A DNA stretch of 64,000 nt from Bradyrhizobium diazoefficiens. Lineage in GTDB: Bacteria; Pseudomonadota; Alphaproteobacteria; Rhizobiales; Xanthobacteraceae. Location: NCBI RefSeq assembly GCF_016612535.1, contig NZ_JAENXS010000002.1, positions 1,860,001 to 1,924,000 of the forward strand, read 5' to 3'. The notes under the pieces were generated by a model. The model saw only the letters and a program-made list of their open reading frames with translations, had not been told where the DNA came from and did not search any database. The translations under genes were made by a program, and so were the position numbers. This document shows, in pieces, positions 49,681 to 59,806 of the stretch (position 1 is its first letter; each line of letters starts with the position of its first letter).

Positions 49681-52383
49681 CTACCCCGCCGCGCCCGCGA
49701 CCTTCGCCTGCTTCGCCGGCAGCTCGGTCGTTGCGATCAGGCGCTTCAGTTCGGGGATGCAGGAGCCGCAATTAGTGCCGGCCTTGAGCTTGGCGCCGAT
49801 CTCGGCGGCGGTACGCGCGCCGCTCGCGATGGTGTCGCAGATGGTGCCGCGGCCGACGCCGAAGCAGGCGCAGACGATCGGACCGGTCGAGGCGGCGCCT
49901 TCGGCCGACTTGCCTGACAGCAGCATGCGGCGCTGATCGTCGGTGACGCGGTCGGCCGCGAACACGCTCTTCACCACCTCCCAGTCGCCGGCATCGTGCG
50001 CGGGGCCGACGAACAGGCAGGTCTCGATGCGGTCACCCGCGAACGAGGCCGCGCGATAGACGCCGCCGCCGAAATCGCGATAGTCGGCGATGTCCTCACC
50101 GGCGAGGCCGTCGAGCCAGGCCGGCCAGCGCGCAAGGTCGGCATTGTCGGCAAAGAGATAGCCGAAGCCGCCTATGACGGTTGCGCGGGTCCACAACAGG
50201 TTCGGCGGCAGATCGAGCTGCTTGCGTGACAGCGCAAAGCCGCGGAAGACGTATTCATACGGCGCAATCGCAGCCGGCGTCGCCTTCGATTCCGGCTGTC
50301 CGGAGAATGGATCGGTGAACGGCGCGACCAGCGCGCCGACACGGCCATGCGAAGCGTTCATCGCGCTCCAGTGGATCGGCGCGAACAGCGTACCACGCTG
50401 CTGCCGATCGCTGACGACGACCTTCAGGATGCACTGGCCGTAGTCGGTGGTGATGCGGGCGAAGCCGGCGTGCACGATGTTGTATTTGTTGGCGTCATCA
50501 GGATGGATCTCGACGAACGGCTCGGGCAGATGCGCACCGAGCCGCCGGCTCAGACCCGTGCGCGTCATGGTGTGCCACTGGTCGCGAATGCGTCCGGTGT
50601 TGAGCCGTAAGGGCCGCGACGGTCCGGTCTCGCTGCGCAGCGCCGGTACCTCCGGCGCGATGAAGCGGCCCTTGCCGTCATTGGTGAAGAAGCCACCTTC
50701 CGCGAAGAAGCGCTCGCCGGGCTCCGCGCCTTCACGCGCGGGCCACAGTACGGGCTTCAGCGTGTCGAAGGCTTCGTCGGACAGCGAAGTGAGCGCGCCG
50801 ATGTCGAAATCCCGGCTGCCATTGTTCTCGAACGCCGAGAGCGCGGCATGCTCGCGAAAGATGTCGGCGGCGGATTTGTAATTGAAGCTGTCGCCGAAGC
50901 CGAGGCGCTTTGCCGTCTCGCTGAGGATCCACCAGTCCGGCCGCGCCTCGCCAGGCGCCGGCAGGAACGAGCGCTGGCGCGAGATGCGGCGTTCGGAATT
51001 GGTCACCGTGCCCGACTTCTCGCCCCAGGCGAGCGCAGGCAGCAGCACATGCGGACCGGCATCGACGGTGTCGTTCGACAGCACGTTCTCGGAGACGACG
51101 AACAGCTCGAGCTTCCTCAGCGCCTCGCGCACGAAATCGGCATCGGGCAGCGACACCGCGGGGTTGGTGCCCATCACCCACAGCGCCTTGACCTCGCCGC
51201 GGTTGATTGCCTCGAACAGCTGAACCGCCTTCAACCCCTCATGGGTGGCGATGCGCGGCGCCTTCCAAAACCGCCTGACGCGGTCGATGTCCGGCGGCGT
51301 GAAATTCATGTGGGCGGCGAGCTGGTTGGCGAGGCCGCCGACTTCGCGGCCGCCCATCGCATTGGGCTGGCCGGTGAGCGAGAACGGCGAGGCGCCGGGC
51401 TTGCCAATGCGCCCGGTGGCGAGATGGCAGTTCAGGATGGCGTTGACCTTGTCGGTGCCCTGCGCCGACTGGTTCACGCCTTGCGAGTAGAGCGTGACGA
51501 CCCGCTCGGTGTCACGGAACATCTTGAAGAAGGTCGCAACGTCCTGCTCGGTCAGCCCCGTCGCAAGCGCAGTCGCGGTGACGCTGCCGGCGATGTTGCG
51601 TGCACGCGCCAGCGCATCGTCGAAGCCCGAGGTGTTGTTGGCAACGTAGTCCCGGTCCAACGCACCGCTGTCGACGAGATGGACGAACAGGCCCGAGAAC
51701 AGCGCGGTATCGCTGCCGGGTTTCAGGCCAAGGAACAGATCGACGTCACTCGCGGTGTCGGTGCGGCGCGGATCGATCACGATCATGCGGGCGCCGCGCT
51801 CCTGCCGGTTCTTCACCATGCGCTGGAACAGCACGGGATGGCACCAGGCCGCGTTCGAGCCGACGAAAACCAGCAGATCGGCCTGGTCGAGATCCTCGTA
51901 GCAGCCGGGCACGGTGTCGGCGCCGAAGGCGCGTCGGTGGCCGGCCACGGAAGACGACATGCAGAGCCGCGAATTGGTGTCGACATTGGCGGTGCCGACA
52001 AAGCCCTTCATCAGCTTGTTGGCGACGTAATAATCCTCGGTGAGAAGCTGGCCGGAGAGATAGAAGGCGACCGCGTCGGCGCCGTCGCGCGCGACGATGT
52101 GCTTCATGCGGTGCGCGACATGGTCGAGCGCATCGCTCCAGGCGACGCGCTCCAGCACGCCCTTGCAGCGGATCATCGGATAGAGCAACCGGCTCTCGAG
52201 TCCGACGGTCTCGCCGAGCGCAGAGCCCTTGGAGCACAGCCGGCCGAAATTGGCGGGATGATCGGGGTCGCCGGCGATTGCCGCACCGCCTGCGCCGTCG
52301 GGCGTTGCGAGCACGCCGCAGCCGACGCCGCAATAGGGGCAGGTCGTGTTGATGGTGCGGAGGTTCGGGTCGATCGCCGTCAT
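49681..52383 (-). CDS. nasC: Assimilatory nitrate reductase catalytic subunit
   Basis: 900 residues from MTAIDPNLRTINTTCPYC. N-terminal [4Fe-4S] ligands Cys15, Cys18, Cys22 and Cys50, molybdopterin-guanine-dinucleotide binding throughout, and a C-terminal BFD-like [2Fe-2S] domain with Cys838, Cys840, Cys872 and Cys875 that accepts electrons from a reductase. Reduces nitrate to nitrite in the cytoplasm. It follows the FAD protein by 2 bases and is last in the narK-bjgb-flp-nasC order known in B. diazoefficiens. The frame to 52530 is discarded. Confidence 0.95.
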   Translation of the reverse strand: MTAIDPNLRTINTTCPYCGVGCGVLATPDGAGGAAIAGDPDHPANFGRLCSKGSALGETVGLESRLLYPMIRCKGVLERVAWSDALDHVAHRMKHIVARDGADAVAFYLSGQLLTEDYYVANKLMKGFVGTANVDTNSRLCMSSSVAGHRRAFGADTVPGCYEDLDQADLLVFVGSNAAWCHPVLFQRMVKNRQERGARMIVIDPRRTDTASDVDLFLGLKPGSDTALFSGLFVHLVDSGALDRDYVANNTSGFDDALARARNIAGSVTATALATGLTEQDVATFFKMFRDTERVVTLYSQGVNQSAQGTDKVNAILNCHLATGRIGKPGASPFSLTGQPNAMGGREVGGLANQLAAHMNFTPPDIDRVRRFWKAPRIATHEGLKAVQLFEAINRGEVKALWVMGTNPAVSLPDADFVREALRKLELFVVSENVLSNDTVDAGPHVLLPALAWGEKSGTVTNSERRISRQRSFLPAPGEARPDWWILSETAKRLGFGDSFNYKSAADIFREHAALSAFENNGSRDFDIGALTSLSDEAFDTLKPVLWPAREGAEPGERFFAEGGFFTNDGKGRFIAPEVPALRSETGPSRPLRLNTGRIRDQWHTMTRTGLSRRLGAHLPEPFVEIHPDDANKYNIVHAGFARITTDYGQCILKVVVSDRQQRGTLFAPIHWSAMNASHGRVGALVAPFTDPFSGQPESKATPAAIAPYEYVFRGFALSRKQLDLPPNLLWTRATVIGGFGYLFADNADLARWPAWLDGLAGEDIADYRDFGGGVYRAASFAGDRIETCLFVGPAHDAGDWEVVKSVFAADRVTDDQRRMLLSGKSAEGAASTGPIVCACFGVGRGTICDTIASGARTAAEIGAKLKAGTNCGSCIPELKRLIATTELPAKQAKVAGAAG

Positions 52384-54162: not shown

Positions 54163-55545
54163 TCAGACTCGCGCTTCGGCAAGGCTTGGCGCGCCCTCAG
54201 CCTGCGGGCTGCGACGCAGGTAGAACCACCAGGTCAGTCCGAGACAGACGGCGTAGAACGCGAGGAAGATGGCGAGCGCGACCTGCGGTCCGCCCGTCAT
54301 CGCGATCGACTTGCCGAAGCTGCTCGGGATCAGATAGCCGCCGACGGCACCGACCGCGCCGATGAAGCCGACAGCCGCACCGCTCTCGATGCTCGCGGTC
54401 TTCATCGCGAGCGCGCGTGCCGCATCGCCCTTGCCGCGCACCTTGAACAGGTTTTCCTCACGGAAGATCGAGGGGATCATGCGGTAGGTCGAGCCGTTGC
54501 CGATGCCGGTCGTCAGGAACAGGATCAGGAACATCGACAGGAAGCCGGTGAAGTCCTTCTCGCCGACGAAGTAGAGCACGCCGATCGTCGCCGCCGCCAT
54601 CGCGATGAAATTCCAGAACGTGATGATGGAGCCGCCGACCTTGTCGGCAAGCCAGCCGCCGAACGGGCGCGACAACGAGCCGACCAGCGGACCGAGGAAC
54701 GCGATCGAGATCGTGACCGTGGGAAACTGGGTCTTGATCAGCAGCGGAAACGCGGCGGAGTAGCCGATGAAGGAGCCGAACGTTCCGATGTAGATGAGGG
54801 CCATGATCCAGGTGTGCTTGCGCTTGACGATGGCGAGCTGGTTCTTGATCGACGACTTGGCCGAGGTCAAATTGTTCATGAAGAACACCGCGCCGAAGAC
54901 CGCGATCGCGATCGGCAGCACCCACATCAGGCCGGCGTTCTGGAGATAGACGCCGCCGACCGGCGCTGCCTGGAACAGGTTGATGACGGCGAGCGTCATC
55001 AGGATCGGCGTCAGCAGCTGGACGCTGGAGACGCCGATATTGCCGCCGGCGGCATTCAGGCCGAGCGCCCAACCCTTCATGCGGTCCGGGAAGAAGAAGG
55101 AAATGTTGGTCATGCTGGAGGCGAAGTTGCCGCCGCCGAGACCCGCGGTCGAGGCGATCAGCAGCATCATCCAGAACGGCGTCTCGGGTTGTCCCACGAA
55201 GTATGCCAGCGCCAGCGTCGGAATGAACAGCACGGCGGCGCTGAAGATGGTCCAGTTGCGGCCGCCGAAGGTCGTCACCGCGAAGGTATAGGGGAAGCGC
55301 ATCAGGGCGCCGATCAGGCCCGGCACGGCCACGAGCTGGAACAATTCGTCGGTCGAATAGTGAAAGCCCGCCTGCGGCAGCTTGGTGGCGACGATGCTCC
55401 AGATCAGCCAGACGGAGAAACCGATATGCTCGGCCACGATCGACCAGATCAGGTTACGCCGGGCGACGGTCTTGCCGCCCGCATTCCAGAACGCCTCGTC
55501 CTCGGGGCGCCAGTCAGAAATCCACGTCGGATTGCCTTCCCTCAT
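54163..55545 (-). CDS. narK: Nitrate/nitrite transporter, NarK family (MFS)
   Basis: 460 residues from MREGNPTWISDWRPEDEAFW. About 12 TM segments; the NarK signature glycine-rich TMs are visible as GLGGGNFASSMTNISFFFP and GIGNGSTYRMIPSIF, and AAVGFIGAVGAVGGYLIP. Imports nitrate and/or exports nitrite across the inner membrane. It is the first gene of the four-gene operon. A sigma-54-type promoter lies about 143 bases upstream of the ATG, implying nitrogen control. Confidence 0.95.
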   Translation of the reverse strand: MREGNPTWISDWRPEDEAFWNAGGKTVARRNLIWSIVAEHIGFSVWLIWSIVATKLPQAGFHYSTDELFQLVAVPGLIGALMRFPYTFAVTTFGGRNWTIFSAAVLFIPTLALAYFVGQPETPFWMMLLIASTAGLGGGNFASSMTNISFFFPDRMKGWALGLNAAGGNIGVSSVQLLTPILMTLAVINLFQAAPVGGVYLQNAGLMWVLPIAIAVFGAVFFMNNLTSAKSSIKNQLAIVKRKHTWIMALIYIGTFGSFIGYSAAFPLLIKTQFPTVTISIAFLGPLVGSLSRPFGGWLADKVGGSIITFWNFIAMAAATIGVLYFVGEKDFTGFLSMFLILFLTTGIGNGSTYRMIPSIFREENLFKVRGKGDAARALAMKTASIESGAAVGFIGAVGAVGGYLIPSSFGKSIAMTGGPQVALAIFLAFYAVCLGLTWWFYLRRSPQAEGAPSLAEARV

Positions 55546-55677
55546 CGGAAATTTCCCTTTCACTAGGAAGCGGGACACCGACTGGCGCGGGCGCAGGGAT
55601 GCACGCTCGGGGGAAGCCCCCGTTTTCGGCGGTGTCACAATTTGAATGATTGCTCGGTGACGGCGTCGCTGGCGTCA
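55546..55677 (-). other. Probable 5' leader of the narK operon
   Basis: Inferred transcript leader of about 130 nt between the sigma-54-type promoter and the narK ATG. It contains a 6-bp hairpin at 55608-55622 (CGGGGG, 3-base loop, CCCCCG), without a following U-run, and a GTCAC/GTGAC inverted pair at about 55633-55660. Nitrate-assimilation leaders in related bacteria are antiterminated by NasT (ANTAR). I cannot confirm the paired hexaloop hairpins of that motif by eye. Confidence 0.4.
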
Positions 55678-55687
55678 GAACCCGTAA

Positions 55688-55703
55688 TTCAAGCTCCGTG
55701 CCA
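55688..55703 (-). promoter_or_regulatory. Sigma-54-type promoter of the narK operon
   Basis: Minus-strand TGGCACGGAGCTTGAA: perfect -24 element TGGCAC, five-base spacer, and a -12 element TTGAA, one base off the usual TTGCA/T. Correct orientation and distance for narK. Fits NtrC/RpoN control described for this operon in B. diazoefficiens. Confidence 0.65.
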
Positions 55704-55831
55704 AATTGCGGTAGACGGTAAATGCAAGTAATAACAATATCTTATGTCGAATGATGAAATATTGATCATGCCTAAAACTGCATCAAAAACTTGCGGATCG
55801 CTCATTTCTTGAATGGCGATTCGCCCGCTGA

Positions 55832-55846
55832 TTGTGCGACGCACAA
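55832..55846. promoter_or_regulatory. Palindrome between the divergent nitrate promoters
   Basis: TTGTGCGACGCACAA, 6-bp perfect arms with a 3-base centre. It lies about 130 bp from the narK -24 element and about 135 bp from the nitrite transporter -24 element, near the middle. Spacing suits an enhancer for an NtrC-type activator, though the half-sites (GTGC...GCAC) are inverted relative to the usual NtrC form. Confidence 0.45.
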
Positions 55847-55979
55847 GACTTGGGCACGCGCCCGTTTTTTCGCCAGCGAACGGCCTGCCGCGACCGATTG
55901 GGTTGGGCGGGGGCGGCTTATCTCCTTCCAAACAAGGCAAAACTCGGCCCTTGCGGCCGCGCTGCGTTGCCGACCGGTC

Positions 55980-55995
55980 TGGCACATCGATTGCT
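55980..55995 (+). promoter_or_regulatory. Sigma-54-type promoter of the formate/nitrite transporter gene
   Basis: TGGCACATCGATTGCT: full match to the consensus TGGCAC-N5-TTGCW, GG and GC correctly spaced. Expected start near 56006, leaving a leader of roughly 230 nt before the ATG at 56240. Confidence 0.75.
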
Positions 55996-56005
55996 TTCAT
56001 TCTGC

Positions 56006-56239
56006 CTAGTCAACGATGACTGACAGTGAGTCGGGGCGCGATGCCACCGAAGGCCACTGGGGTGCGAAGCCTGTTCGCTGGTCCGCCGAAGCGCGGTCAT
56101 CGTGACGCTATCCCGTTGCGCATGTCGATGGTCCTTCTCCAGCACGCGTTCCCTCGGGGCACGAAAGCTCACTGGCCTGACAGAGGCGCCGGTCCGGCAG
56201 GGACCTCGCCGATCGTTCATATAAACAAAGGAACTGTTG
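56006..56239 (+). other. Probable long 5' leader of the nitrite transporter gene
   Basis: Inferred leader of about 230 nt without a credible ORF. Short foldable elements include GACT-N7-AGTC (about 56017-56031), CGCT/AGCG near 56077-56092 and GGTCC/GGACC at about 56191-56205. Length and context fit a regulated leader, for example NasT-type antitermination, but no terminator with a U-run is visible. Confidence 0.35.
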
Positions 56240-57079
56240 ATGTCGTATCTCGCACCTTCGGAATTCGTCACCAAGATGGTGGACGCCGGCGAATCCAAGA
56301 TCTTCATGTCCACTAGGGATACGATCATCCGCGCCTACATGGCCGGCGCCATCCTGGCACTCGCCGCCTGGTTCGCGGTCACCATCAACGTCAACACCGG
56401 CCAGCCGATCATCGGCGCGCTGCTGTTTCCGGTCGGATTCTGCATGCTCTATCTGCTGGGCTTCGATCTCTTGACCGGCGTCTTCGTGCTCTCGCCACTG
56501 GCACTGCTCGACAAGCGTCCCGGCGTCACGATCGGCGGTGTCCTGCGCAACTGGGGCCTCGTCTTCATCGGCAATTTCGCTGGCGCCCTGACGGTGGCCT
56601 TCATGATGGCGTTCGTCACGACGTTCGGTTTCACGCAGGACCCCGACAAGGTCGGCACAGCGATCGGCAACATCGGCGAAGGCCGGACGCTCGGCTACGC
56701 CGCCCACGGCGCGGCCGGCATGGCGACGCTGTTCATCCGCGGCATGCTCTGCAACTGGATGGTCTCGACCGGCGTCGTCGGCGCGATGATCTCCACCACG
56801 GTCCCCGGCAAGGTGATCGCGATGTGGATGCCGATCCTGGTGTTCTTCTACATGGTGTTCGAGCATTCCGTCGTGAACATGTTCCTGTTTCCGTCGGGCC
56901 TGATGCTCCACGCCAAGTTCTCGATCCTGGACTATTTCATCTGGAACGAGATCCCGACCGTGCTGGGCAACCTCGTCGGCGGCCTCGCCTTTACCGGCCT
57001 CACGCTCTACACGACGCATGTCTTGACGAAGCCGAAGCGCGAGCCGGCGGCGAAGGCGCAGACCCGCGCCGCAGCCTGA
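56240..57079 (+). CDS. Formate/nitrite transporter family protein (nitrite channel)
   Basis: 279 residues from ATG at 56240 (AAAGGAACTGTTG upstream; a TTG one codon earlier is not needed). FNT family with six TM segments, including YMAGAILALAAWFAV, the pore region FMLYLLGFDLLTG, and GMLCNWMVSTGV with the conserved FNT signature GNxLCN-like RGMLCNWMV. Probably passes nitrite or formate. It runs divergently from the narK operon from its own sigma-54-type promoter, so nitrite is the likely cargo (NirC-like). Confidence 0.88.
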   Translation: MSYLAPSEFVTKMVDAGESKIFMSTRDTIIRAYMAGAILALAAWFAVTINVNTGQPIIGALLFPVGFCMLYLLGFDLLTGVFVLSPLALLDKRPGVTIGGVLRNWGLVFIGNFAGALTVAFMMAFVTTFGFTQDPDKVGTAIGNIGEGRTLGYAAHGAAGMATLFIRGMLCNWMVSTGVVGAMISTTVPGKVIAMWMPILVFFYMVFEHSVVNMFLFPSGLMLHAKFSILDYFIWNEIPTVLGNLVGGLAFTGLTLYTTHVLTKPKREPAAKAQTRAAA

Positions 57080-57130: not shown

Positions 57131-57145
57131 GCATTGGTGGCGAGG

Positions 57146-58879
57146 ATGGGCCGGGGCTTGCTAATTTCGATCGGGCAGCACTCCGACAAGGGGCGCAAGC
57201 CGGTCAATCAGGACTTTCACGGTGCCCTCATCCCGACGGAGCCGCTGCTGAGCCTGAAGGGAATCGCCGTCGTGCTGGCCGACGGCATCTCGAGCAGCGC
57301 GGTAAGCCAGGTCGCAAGCGAGTCGGCGGTCAAGAGCTTCCTGACCGATTACTACTGCACGCCGGAATCCTGGACGGTGAAGAATTCGGCGCGCCGCGTT
57401 CTCGAAGCCACCAACTCATGGCTGCACGCCGAAACGCGGCGTAGCCAATACGCTTATGAGCGTGACAAGGGCTACGTCTGCACCTTCACCGCGATGGTCG
57501 TCAAATCGACCATGGCCCATATCTTCCACGTCGGCGACTGCCGGATCTACCGTGTCGCCGGCAAGGCCCTCGAACAGCTCACCGAAGACCACCGCATCAT
57601 CGTCTCGTCGGAGCAGACCTATCTCGGCCGCGCGCTTGGCATCAATCCGCAGATCGAAATCGACTATCAGTCGCTCCAGATCGAGCAAGGCGACATCTTC
57701 TTGCTGGCGACCGACGGCGCCTACGAGTTCAGCGATCATCGCTTCATCACCGGCACGTTGGATGCCCATGCCGGTGATCTCGATAGGGCAGCGAAATCCA
57801 TCGTCGAAGAGGCCTATCGACACGGCAGCGACGACAACATCACCGTCCAGATCCTGCGCATCGACGAGATGCCGCAAACCGGCTCATCCGACACTTTCGG
57901 CGGCACGACGGAACTGCCTTTGCCACCGCTGCCGGAGCCGCGCGCGTTGTTCGACGGCTACCGCATCGTTCGCGAAGTGCACGCCTCCAGCCGCAGCCAC
58001 ATCTATCTCGCCGTCGACAGCGAGACCGAGGAGAGGGTTGCCTTGAAGATCCCCTCGATCGATCTCCGCGACGATCCCGCCTATCTGAAGCGCTTCCTCA
58101 TGGAGGAATGGATTGCGCGTCGGATCGACAGCCCGCACGTCCTCAAGCCCCGCTCGCGATCCAAACGACGCAACTATCTCTACGTCGCGACCGAGTTCAT
58201 CGAGGGACAGACGCTGCGACAATGGATGCTGGACAATCCGCGGCCCGACCTCGAGACCGTACGTGGCATCGTCGACCAGATCGCATCAGGCTTGCGCGCG
58301 TTCCATCGCATGGAGATGCTGCATCAGGATTTGAGACCCGACAACATCCTGATCGACAAGACCGGCACCGCGAAGATCATCGACTTCGGCGCGGTCAAGG
58401 TTGCCGGAATCGTCGAGGCCGCACCAGATTCGGCCGACGCCGAAATCCTCGGCACGGTGCAGTACACTGCGCCGGAATACTTTCTCGGCGAAGGCGGCTC
58501 GCCGCGGTCGGACATGTTCTCGCTGGCCGTGATTTGCTACCAGATGCTGACCGGAGATCTGCCTTATGGCGCCCAAATCGCCCGGATCCGGGGACGATCG
58601 GATGCGTGGAAGCTGAAATATCGTCCGCCCGGCCACGACGACCGCGCCGTCCCCGTCTGGATCGACGGCGCGCTGCGCAAGGCGCTGCACCCCGATCCCA
58701 ACAAGCGCCACGAAGATCTGTCCGAATTCACCTACGAGCTCAGAAACCCCAATCCGGCCTATCTCAGCACACGGACCACGCCGCTGATCGAGCGCAATCC
58801 GCTGCTGTTTTGGAAGCTGACCACGGTTGTTCTGGCCTGCGCCGTCGTCACGCTGCTCGCGCTCTTGCATGCGCGCTAG
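57146..58879 (+). CDS. PP2C phosphatase - Ser/Thr kinase fusion with C-terminal membrane anchor
   Basis: 577 residues from MGRGLLISIGQHSDKG (GTG 57137 and TTG 57134 are alternatives). PP2C domain (1-240) keeps its metal Asps: ADG (Asp46), HVGD (Asp131), ATDGAYEF (Asp190) and DDNIT. After a Pro-rich linker, a kinase domain has Lys301 (VALKIP), HQDLRPDN with catalytic Asp395, DFG at 414-416 and APEYF; the Gly-rich loop is degenerate (REVHASSRSH) and HRD is HQD. One TM at the end (LTTVVLACAVVTLLALL). Similar fusions accompany nitrate-assimilation genes in other proteobacteria. Confidence 0.9.
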   Translation: MGRGLLISIGQHSDKGRKPVNQDFHGALIPTEPLLSLKGIAVVLADGISSSAVSQVASESAVKSFLTDYYCTPESWTVKNSARRVLEATNSWLHAETRRSQYAYERDKGYVCTFTAMVVKSTMAHIFHVGDCRIYRVAGKALEQLTEDHRIIVSSEQTYLGRALGINPQIEIDYQSLQIEQGDIFLLATDGAYEFSDHRFITGTLDAHAGDLDRAAKSIVEEAYRHGSDDNITVQILRIDEMPQTGSSDTFGGTTELPLPPLPEPRALFDGYRIVREVHASSRSHIYLAVDSETEERVALKIPSIDLRDDPAYLKRFLMEEWIARRIDSPHVLKPRSRSKRRNYLYVATEFIEGQTLRQWMLDNPRPDLETVRGIVDQIASGLRAFHRMEMLHQDLRPDNILIDKTGTAKIIDFGAVKVAGIVEAAPDSADAEILGTVQYTAPEYFLGEGGSPRSDMFSLAVICYQMLTGDLPYGAQIARIRGRSDAWKLKYRPPGHDDRAVPVWIDGALRKALHPDPNKRHEDLSEFTYELRNPNPAYLSTRTTPLIERNPLLFWKLTTVVLACAVVTLLALLHAR

Positions 58880-58888
58880 ATCGAGCCC

Positions 58889-59806
58889 TCACGCCGGCTC
58901 CTTGGCCTGCGTCCCCAACGGCTTCGGCGCGATGCCGCCGCCCGGCTTGAGATGGAATTCGTAGGTCATCAGGTGCCATGGCCCGTTCGCCTTGGCGCCG
59001 TCGGGCATCGTCGGATCGTTGCGCGGCTCGACCTTGGCGACGAGGTCGTCCTTGACCCCGAACACGACGTCGGAATCGAGATATTTATCGCCATCCATGA
59101 AGACGTGGGTGATTAGCGGCTCGTAGCCCTTCGCATTGACCAGGAAGTGCACATGCGCTGGCCGCATCGGATGACGCTTGGTCTGCATGATCATCTCGCC
59201 GACCGGGCCGTCGGTCGGGATCGGATAGCTACATGGCAGGATGGTGCGGAAGAAGAAGCGGCCGTCGCCGTCCGTCACAAAGCGCGCTCGCGCCGAGGCA
59301 CCGACCTCGTCGTAGTTCGGCTTCTGTGAATCGTAGAAGCCGTCGTCATCGGCGTGCCAGACGTCGACAGGCACATTCGCGAGCGGCTTGCCCTGGAGAT
59401 CGGTGACGCGGCTCTGCACGAACATCCGCTCGCCGGTGAGATTGTTCGGCGAGATGTCGGTGCCATGGGCCGTCACCTTGTGCTCGCCGACATAGAACGG
59501 GCCGAGCACGGTGGTCTGGGTGGCACCGTCGCGGTCACGGTGGTTGACCGCGTCGACCAGCATGGAGACGCCGAGCACGTCGGAGAGCAGTATGAATTCC
59601 TGGCGGGTGTCGGTGCATTTCTGGCCGGTGCGGGTCAGAAAATCGATGGCGTAGTCCCATTCCTCGAAGCTGAGACCGGTCTTGCTCACGTAATCGTGCA
59701 GCGACTTCACCAATTCCTGGAGCAGGAATTTCGCGCGCGGGTTCGGCGTGTTGTCGAAGCTTTTGACGACGGCTTCGGTGAGTTCGGTCTCGTTGAACTG
59801 GGTCAT
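58889..59806 (-). CDS. Intradiol ring-cleavage dioxygenase (catechol/hydroxyquinol 1,2-dioxygenase type)
   Basis: 305 residues. Fe(III) ligands by family pattern: Tyr158 (GFYDSQ), Tyr194 (CSYPIP), His218 and His220 (RPAHVHF). The N-terminal helical dimerisation domain (1-100) is of the catechol/hydroxyquinol 1,2-dioxygenase type. Cleaves a catechol-like ring between the hydroxyls. Hydroxyquinol dioxygenase is my preference from the overall pattern. No maleylacetate reductase or muconate cycloisomerase is adjacent; the enolase-family gene at the right edge is not obviously linked. Confidence 0.9.
   Translation of the reverse strand: MTQFNETELTEAVVKSFDNTPNPRAKFLLQELVKSLHDYVSKTGLSFEEWDYAIDFLTRTGQKCTDTRQEFILLSDVLGVSMLVDAVNHRDRDGATQTTVLGPFYVGEHKVTAHGTDISPNNLTGERMFVQSRVTDLQGKPLANVPVDVWHADDDGFYDSQKPNYDEVGASARARFVTDGDGRFFFRTILPCSYPIPTDGPVGEMIMQTKRHPMRPAHVHFLVNAKGYEPLITHVFMDGDKYLDSDVVFGVKDDLVAKVEPRNDPTMPDGAKANGPWHLMTYEFHLKPGGGIAPKPLGTQAKEPA

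Follow-up and report, generated by a model that had tools for sequence, protein, structure and literature searches.

Results

Layout of the locus

The window, a stretch of 64,000 nucleotides of Bradyrhizobium diazoefficiens DNA, holds a nitrate locus in which narK and a focA/nirC-type gene point away from each other across an intergenic region (Table 1). The best NCBIfam matches of the narK product are NarU (E 4.1e-129) and the NarK family (E 1.5e-89), both below the curated cut-offs. The gene order is narK< element focA> kinase> dio< blac>, where the element is the 33-bp sequence discussed below and dio the dioxygenase gene, so that the focA-kinase cassette sits between the dioxygenase gene and the element. 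Genomes that are free of the cassette have the order blac> dio< element narK/nrtA<. The genome encodes NtrC (747.7 bits, cut-off 558.6), one ANTAR protein and one PHB_acc_N protein. The C-terminus of NasC (window 49681-52383) matches NirB-type and NifU-type models.

Table 1. Genes and sequence features at the narK-focA locus (window coordinates)
Feature	Position	Strand	Remarks
narK	54163..55548	-	first gene of narK-bjgb-flp-nasC
narK leader hairpin P1, GACGCC-AGCGAC-GCCGTC	55659..55676	-	hexaloop A1/G4; expected transcript start
narK -24/-12, TGGCACGGAGCTTGAA	55688..55703	-	TGGCAC-N5-TTGAA
NtrC-type dyad 2, CGCCCGCTGATTGTGCG (GCAC-N7-GnGC)	55822..55838	+	7/10 letters of TGCAC-N7-GTGCA
Conserved enhancer-like element, GCnCA-N4-TTGTGCGNCGCACAA-N4-TGnGC	55823..55855	.	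one mismatch here: GCCCG
PhaR-type site, TGCGTCGCACAA	55832..55843	-	identical to second footprinted phaP1 site (PMC6201568)
PhaR-type site, TGCGACGCACAA	55835..55846	+	identical to footprinted phaP1 site (PMC6201568)
NtrC-type dyad 1, TGCCCAAGTCTTGTGCG (GCnC-N7-GTGC)	55840..55856	-	8/10 letters of TGCAC-N7-GTGCA
focA -24/-12, TGGCACATCGATTGCT	55980..55995	+	full consensus TGGCAC-N5-TTGCW, GG at -24, GC at -12; similar sites at relatives' focA
focA leader hairpin P1, TAGTC-AACGAT-GACTG	56007..56022	+	hexaloop A1/G4
Candidate second ANTAR hairpin P2, GCC-ACCGAA-GGC	56043..56054	+	3-bp stem, weak; suggested by the sequence
focA/nirC-type formate/nitrite transporter	56240..57079	+	PF01226, E 6.8e-62
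PP2C phosphatase-Ser/Thr kinase fusion	57134..58879	+	3' of focA; PF00069, PF13672
Intradiol dioxygenase	58889..59806	-	PF00775

Two divergent sigma-54-type promoters

The initial annotation had proposed a sigma-54-type promoter on either side of the intergenic region and had called the focA site a full consensus match. Both sites are present at the coordinates of Table 1, and the focA site agrees with TGGCAC-N5-TTGCW throughout. In the window alone, two matches with at most one mismatch are unremarkable, since 48 of 100 shuffles reach this number. In the whole genome, the TGGCAC-N5-TTGCW pattern has 12+9 matches, versus 2+1 for the reversed pattern (21 versus 3, sevenfold). The TGGCAC-N5-TTGAA form of the narK site is rare (1+2 versus 0+1 in the control) and not clearly enriched. 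The narK site is credible because it is conserved across narK upstream regions, and not on the grounds of genome-wide enrichment: it reads TGGCAY-N5-TTGAA in all 23 regions, window included, and TGGCAC in 20 of them. Among 70 sequence-distinct promoters of the narK/nrtA type near the element, the -12 sequence is TTGAA in 69 and TTGAC in one, a count made on rows that had been sorted by the TTGA itself. The absence of GC at -12 in the narK site, which reads GA (TTGAA), counts against the sigma-54 reading. The focA site recurs as TGGCA(C/T)-N5-TTGCT upstream of many focA genes, both within the genus and beyond it, and in genomes with the nrtA|focA arrangement it is mostly CGGCAC-N5-TTGC(A/T).

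Mutation of rpoN in strain DOA9 lowers the expression of nrtA, fnt, prkC and further nitrate genes (PMC13207237, in excerpt). The DOA9 contig (L052) has TGGCATGAAGCTTGAA and CGGCACACAACTTGCA turned towards the 33-bp element, at distances of 111 and 110 bp, and the published nrtA and fnt RpoN motifs fall within the leaders, 3' of the sites found here.

A 33-bp element conserved in the genus

The palindrome TTGTGCGACGCACAA (55832-55846, centre 55839) lies nearly midway between the promoters, as the initial annotation had it: 141 bp separate its centre from the first base of the focA -24 sequence, and 136 bp from that of the narK one. It is exactly TTGTGCGNCGCACAA in 21 of 23 narK upstream regions; the remaining two (L054 and L055) end in CACAG, with one outer letter changed. 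The initial annotation had suggested an alignment across Bradyrhizobium and would have counted a lack of conservation of the palindrome against its proposal; conservation is borne out. The palindrome is conserved as the centre of a 33-bp element, which occurs with at most two mismatches in 113 of 117 sampled genomes of the genus, in one or two copies each. A reversed pattern gave 0 matches in the 117 genomes, and a pattern with both spacers one base longer matched in 1/117. In an order-wide search, the element was found in 9/9 genomes of the same genus and in 2/288 others. One of these two copies (L227, family f42, outside the family) has two mismatches and precedes a gene with 51% identity to flp, and the neighbours of the other (L228) match none of the nitrate-locus queries. 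Rfam gave 0 matches.

The distance from the element to the -24 sequence is 110-112 bp in 78 of the 112 promoter rows collected. In the nrtA|focA arrangement, it is mostly 110-111 bp to either side, and in the narK|focA arrangement 135-136 bp on the narK side and 133-144 bp on the focA side; only L045 departs from this (113 and 167 bp).

NtrC-type dyads

The palindrome on its own was rejected as an NtrC dyad, because its polarity is wrong (GTGC..GCAC rather than GCAC-N7-GTGC). NtrC-type dyads are completed only by the outer half-sites, which the initial annotation had left unmarked. The two resulting dyads abut, with centres 18 bp apart, and the palindrome is their junction. The outer GC is present in 66/66 distinct enhancers of a set whose search pattern omitted it. 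The E. coli NtrC box is TGCACCAnnnTGGTGCA (PMC8743547, in excerpt). The outer half-sites of the window have lost A, the fourth letter of the 17-bp NtrC dyad GCAnnAnnnTnnTGC; the two dyads, both with N7, agree with TGCAC-N7-GTGCA at 8 and 7 of its 10 letters.

Two findings count against the dyads. Matches to TGCAC-N7-GTGCA that allow one mismatch are frequent in the genome (173 places versus 90 in the control), and few dyads are found upstream of other sigma-54 sites in the same genome. At the promoter of the P-II (glnK-like) gene of this genome, for which NtrC control is expected, TGCCCGACACGTGAGCA lies 152 bp upstream of TGGCACGGCATTTGAT, and the -12 sequence ends in TTGAT. Both the dyad form and a -12 sequence with A thus recur there.

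A third, weaker dyad (7/10) is present at window positions 55779-55795, between the element and the narK promoter. It overlaps an IHF-like stretch, and conservation of a related block was seen in the vicinity of narK and nrtA. Apart from the two dyads of the element, this third one is the only dyad that scored within 300 bp of the focA promoter of the window (L134). Two dyads at a spacing of 19 bp are present at the focA promoters L028, L064 and L109, which lack the PhaR core described below. In Caulobacter, there is an NtrC ChIP peak at narK; the Caulobacter NtrC is without the sigma-54 loop, which counts against the analogy (PMC10274813).

ANTAR-type leaders

Both window leaders have a hexaloop with A1, G4 and a C:G closing pair, as expected for ANTAR/NasT targets; the narK P1 stem has one C.C mismatch beneath the closing pair. 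These hexaloop features are known ANTAR determinants (PMC7496416, PMC3369931, in excerpt). An A1/G4 hexaloop hairpin follows the -12 sequence by 11-18 nt in 112/112 promoter rows. It takes the form GACGCC-ANNGNN-GnCGTC, 11-12 nt past -12, in 70/70 rows of the narK/nrtA type, and GTC-ANNGNN-GAC in 42/42 rows on the focA side. The hairpin was also found in 28 of 29 further promoters, whose redundancy with the earlier rows was examined for the 33-mers only; the exception is L203. Upstream of 49 focA genes from outside Bradyrhizobium, there are 18 C:G-closed A1/G4 hairpins with stems of at least 5 (shuffle mean 1.6, maximum 8). This is the commonest C:G-closed class in the set, the stem sequences differ, and most of the 49 regions have no such hairpin. 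Folds of the two whole leaders are no better than those of shuffles (z -0.02 and 0.01). As a second ANTAR hairpin overlapping a terminator, only the weak 3-bp P2 candidate at focA was found.

That matches to ANTAR-type RNA precede genes for nitrate and nitrite transporters generally is already reported in PMC3369931 (in excerpt). The narK leader has a predicted NasT hairpin (PMC6759348, PMC4724949, both in excerpt), and narK-lacZ requires nasT in USDA110 (PMC4724949). Under denitrifying conditions, narK mRNA is higher, not lower, in a nasT mutant (PMC6759348), which counts against a NasT gate. The accessible parts of the literature on NasT/ANTAR regulation do not name focA among the targets of NasT. 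Since each of the two transcripts is expected to begin at an ANTAR-type hairpin, NasT, and through it nitrate, should act as a second gate on both.

A PhaR-type operator in the core

The phaP1 promoter has two PhaR sites, 12-mers that were footprinted with DNase I (PMC6201568), and the window palindrome contains both letter for letter, one per strand. The PhaR operator TGCRNYGCASMA is present on both strands in the window. Among 75 distinct 33-mers, it is found on both strands in 60, on one strand in 14 and on neither in one. The inner half-sites of these 33-mers enclose a triplet that is R-N-Y in 75/75 and G-N-C in 68/75, with a variable middle letter. R-N-Y adds less than is apparent, because all departures from G-N-C are transitions. 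The constraint on the central triplet is unexplained by the NtrC half-sites, and under NtrC alone the triplet would be expected to be free. Binding of PhaR to the element is a prediction that is likely enough to test, and the core may belong either to NtrC alone or to NtrC together with PhaR.

The genes of this locus are absent from the PhaR targets in the tables of PMC6201568 and PMC10888616, as far as these are accessible. The RNA of the PhaR study came from nitrogen-rich TY medium (PMC6201568), in which NtrC would be idle. Elsewhere in the same genome (L113, C2:11756-11799), the promoter region of a phasin-like gene contains TTGTGCATCGCACAA and TTGTGCGTTGCACTA, 29 bp apart, and is probably a PhaR target of its own.

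Genomic contexts

The 30 loci examined first comprise narK only (12), nrtA|focA (8), nrtA only (7) and narK|focA (3), and the element precedes narK or nrtA in all of them. The same holds for 24 further loci except L203 (G148:C92), where the element and a sigma-54 site precede bjgb, neither narK nor nrtA intervenes, and the usual P1 hairpin pattern is missing. Counted as sequence-distinct divergent arrangements, there are 10 of narK|focA and 31 of nrtA|focA. The symmetry of the palindrome does not mark bidirectional use: 19 of the 30 loci are one-sided, and their copies are mostly the more symmetric ones (20-32 self-complementary positions of 33, versus 18-26 in two-sided copies).

The stop codon of the dioxygenase gene is separated from the 33-mer by 11-22 bp in 26 of 28 cassette-free loci, and by 55 bp (L229) or 112 bp (L160) in the others. 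The final aligned nrtC codon is 30-53 bp from the element in 18 instances. Some genomes that are cassette-free at this locus have focA-kinase at another place, preceded there by a separate sigma-54 site and P1 hairpin (L016/L210 in G042, L012/L159 in G010, L030/L160 in G037). In a NarK tree of 31 rows, the narK|focA rows fall in three places, partly at open forks, a placement compatible with one or several origins of narK|focA and with either gain or loss of the cassette. Recombination between enhancer copies was considered as the origin of narK|focA, and inspection of the motif ends gave no support for it.

Spacer pairing in tandem copies

The spacers of the element lie outside the NtrC letters. 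In tandem copies, those into which an upstream gene reads, they tend to be complementary, with a mean of 3.26 of 4 pairs over 19 distinct 33-mers, versus 1.02 over 41 divergent ones; in the window, a divergent copy, they are not. In loci that hold copies of both types, the tandem copy pairs better in 12/12. The rule that at least 3 spacer pairs indicate a tandem gene was fixed before 24 held-out loci were fetched, of whose 33-mers 7 are identical to ones in the discovery set. All 14 copies predicted to be tandem were tandem, and the 10 predicted to be divergent were 5 divergent and 5 tandem. Pairing points to a tandem gene, yet only 14/19 held-out tandem copies are paired, so that the test was half a success. 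With the held-out loci included, at least 3 pairs are found in 23/32 tandem versus 3/46 divergent 33-mers. In seven more loci, for which the rule was not restated beforehand, 6/6 tandem copies have at least 3 pairs and the sole divergent copy has 0. L154 was classed as divergent by judgement of its upstream genes, the nearest frames containing no dioxygenase.

The covariation score of the tandem set is above all 500 shuffles, and no covariation was found in the divergent set (32 of 46 33-mers analysed); the rows are related, so that p-values overstate the significance. Counted on the sense strand of the upstream gene, the tandem copies have 27 G.U versus 4 A.C cells, and 37 divergent 33-mers have 22 and 31. 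This sense-strand bias towards G.U points to RNA. In tandem copies, the element is probably also a 3' RNA hairpin of the upstream gene, either as a terminator or as a 3'-end stabiliser; no clear U-tract follows this hairpin. In USDA110, RT-PCR of interval 'a', taken to be nrtC-narK, upstream of narK, gave no product (PMC4724949, in excerpt).

Discussion

The 33-bp element is genus-wide, sensitive to spacing and at a fixed distance from sigma-54 promoters, its dyads approximate the NtrC box, and P1 hairpins follow the promoters. For these reasons we consider it quite probable that it is an NtrC enhancer common to two divergent sigma-54 operons with NasT-gated leaders, and the sharing is most likely real in the window. 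The initial annotation had proposed one enhancer-bound activator for both operons. This stands insofar as two sigma-54-type promoters flank one conserved element in 41 instances; the palindrome, in which the activator had been placed, is itself no NtrC dyad. Neither the PhaR match nor the ANTAR leaders were part of that proposal.

Two NtrC dimers would occupy the back-to-back dyads, 18 bp apart, and could loop over 136 and 141 bp to activate sigma-54 polymerase at narK and focA, where the promoters are conserved and their use is predicted. Nitrate would free NasT from NasS, and NasT would then permit read-through past the leader hairpins; NasT dependence is published for USDA110 narK and presumed for focA. 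The result would be an AND gate that needs both nitrogen limitation and nitrate. On the narK side it would switch on nitrate/nitrite transport, nitrate reduction and NO handling, and on the focA side a nitrite channel plus the kinase. In relatives, the element also occurs unshared, before nrtA or narK alone and directly behind the dioxygenase gene.

The strongest competitor, to which we give somewhat less than an even chance, takes the core to be primarily a PhaR operator. PhaR would either overlap the NtrC half-sites and block the enhancer, or own the palindrome while NtrC acts elsewhere, and PHB would release it. The exact phaP1 12-mers, the central triplet with its free middle letter (R-N-Y 75/75, G-N-C 68/75), the single PHB_acc_N protein of the genome and the two similar sites at the phasin-like promoter all speak for it. 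The outer half-sites and the fixed sigma-54 distance are not PhaR features, however, three focA promoters (L028, L064, L109) have dyads at 19-bp spacing without the core, and transitions preserve R-N-Y regardless. No nitrate-uptake gene of the locus is in the accessible PhaR tables either, though the RNA was from nitrogen-rich TY (PMC6201568).

It is improbable, in our view, that each promoter has activator sites of its own, with the element serving narK only and focA adjacent by an accident of gene order. Such an arrangement would agree with the 19/30 elements that have narK or nrtA on one side only, with focA genes elsewhere that have a sigma-54 site without the element, and with the third dyad between the element and narK. 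It accounts poorly for the 41 sequence-distinct instances of a divergent focA start within 700 bp of the element and for the 110-112 bp spacing in 28/42 focA-side promoter rows; within 300 bp of the window focA promoter, moreover, the only further dyad is the third, weak one (7/10). Covariation and the sense-strand G.U bias of the tandem hairpins, and the lack of an RT-PCR product for interval 'a' (taken as upstream of narK; PMC4724949, in excerpt), could also be read as signs that the element is a terminator or mRNA-end hairpin and nothing else. We regard this as very unlikely, given that divergent copies preserve the core and the outer half-sites although their spacers no longer pair, and that the distance to the sigma-54 promoters is fixed. 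A more composite reading, which we hold tentatively and think rather doubtful, is that the element is double NtrC enhancer, PhaR operator and 3' hairpin of a tandem gene at once. Insertion of focA-kinase would have made a one-sided enhancer-terminator bidirectional and freed the spacers, and PHB stores, as a sign of carbon surplus, would permit nitrate uptake by removing PhaR from the inner half-sites of NtrC.

Other regulators were considered for the core. The site forms of NorR (GT-N7-AC) and NifA (TGT-N10-ACA) fit it loosely and not at all, respectively. The published RegR boxes, at positions -49 and -64 of blr2806, do not coincide with the element, and RegR did not shift a fragment from -214 to +34 (PMC4064962). 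The initial annotation had taken control of narK by NtrC/RpoN as known for B. diazoefficiens; what the accessible papers describe for narK is NasT control together with RegR-dependent expression without RegR binding (PMC4724949, PMC4064962, in excerpt).

The nasF operon of Klebsiella oxytoca is initiated by NtrC and sigma-54. It is further subject to NasR antitermination (PMC7496416, in excerpt), and shares with the present locus a nitrogen-limitation promoter and a nitrate-dependent ANTAR leader. It differs in being one operon with the one-component NasR; here two divergent operons would share one enhancer, with NasS-NasT as the likely sensor. The B. diazoefficiens narK-bjgb-flp-nasC operon (PMC4724949, PMC6759348, in excerpt) is the same operon, with published NasT dependence and hairpin, but has nrtABC upstream of narK; the accessible parts of these papers describe no enhancer, shared focA promoter or PhaR match. 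The DOA9 RpoN regulon (PMC13207237, in excerpt) includes nrtA, fnt and prkC at a homologous divergent locus, down in rpoN mutants, whereas the printed nrtA and fnt motifs are 3' of the present sites and a shared enhancer is not mentioned in the accessible part. The phaP1 operator has identical 12-mers, but its repressor sites are beside -35, not within a sigma-54 enhancer (PMC6201568).

The present sites suggest RpoN sites for DOA9 nrtA and fnt other than those published. If the hairpin reading is true, an activator enhancer would be located inside a 3'-end hairpin, and the divergent copies would be a natural control, in which pairing is lost and the binding letters are kept. For the rhizobial nitrate decision, the element would provide a concrete, genus-wide cis element at which nitrogen status, nitrate and perhaps carbon storage come together.
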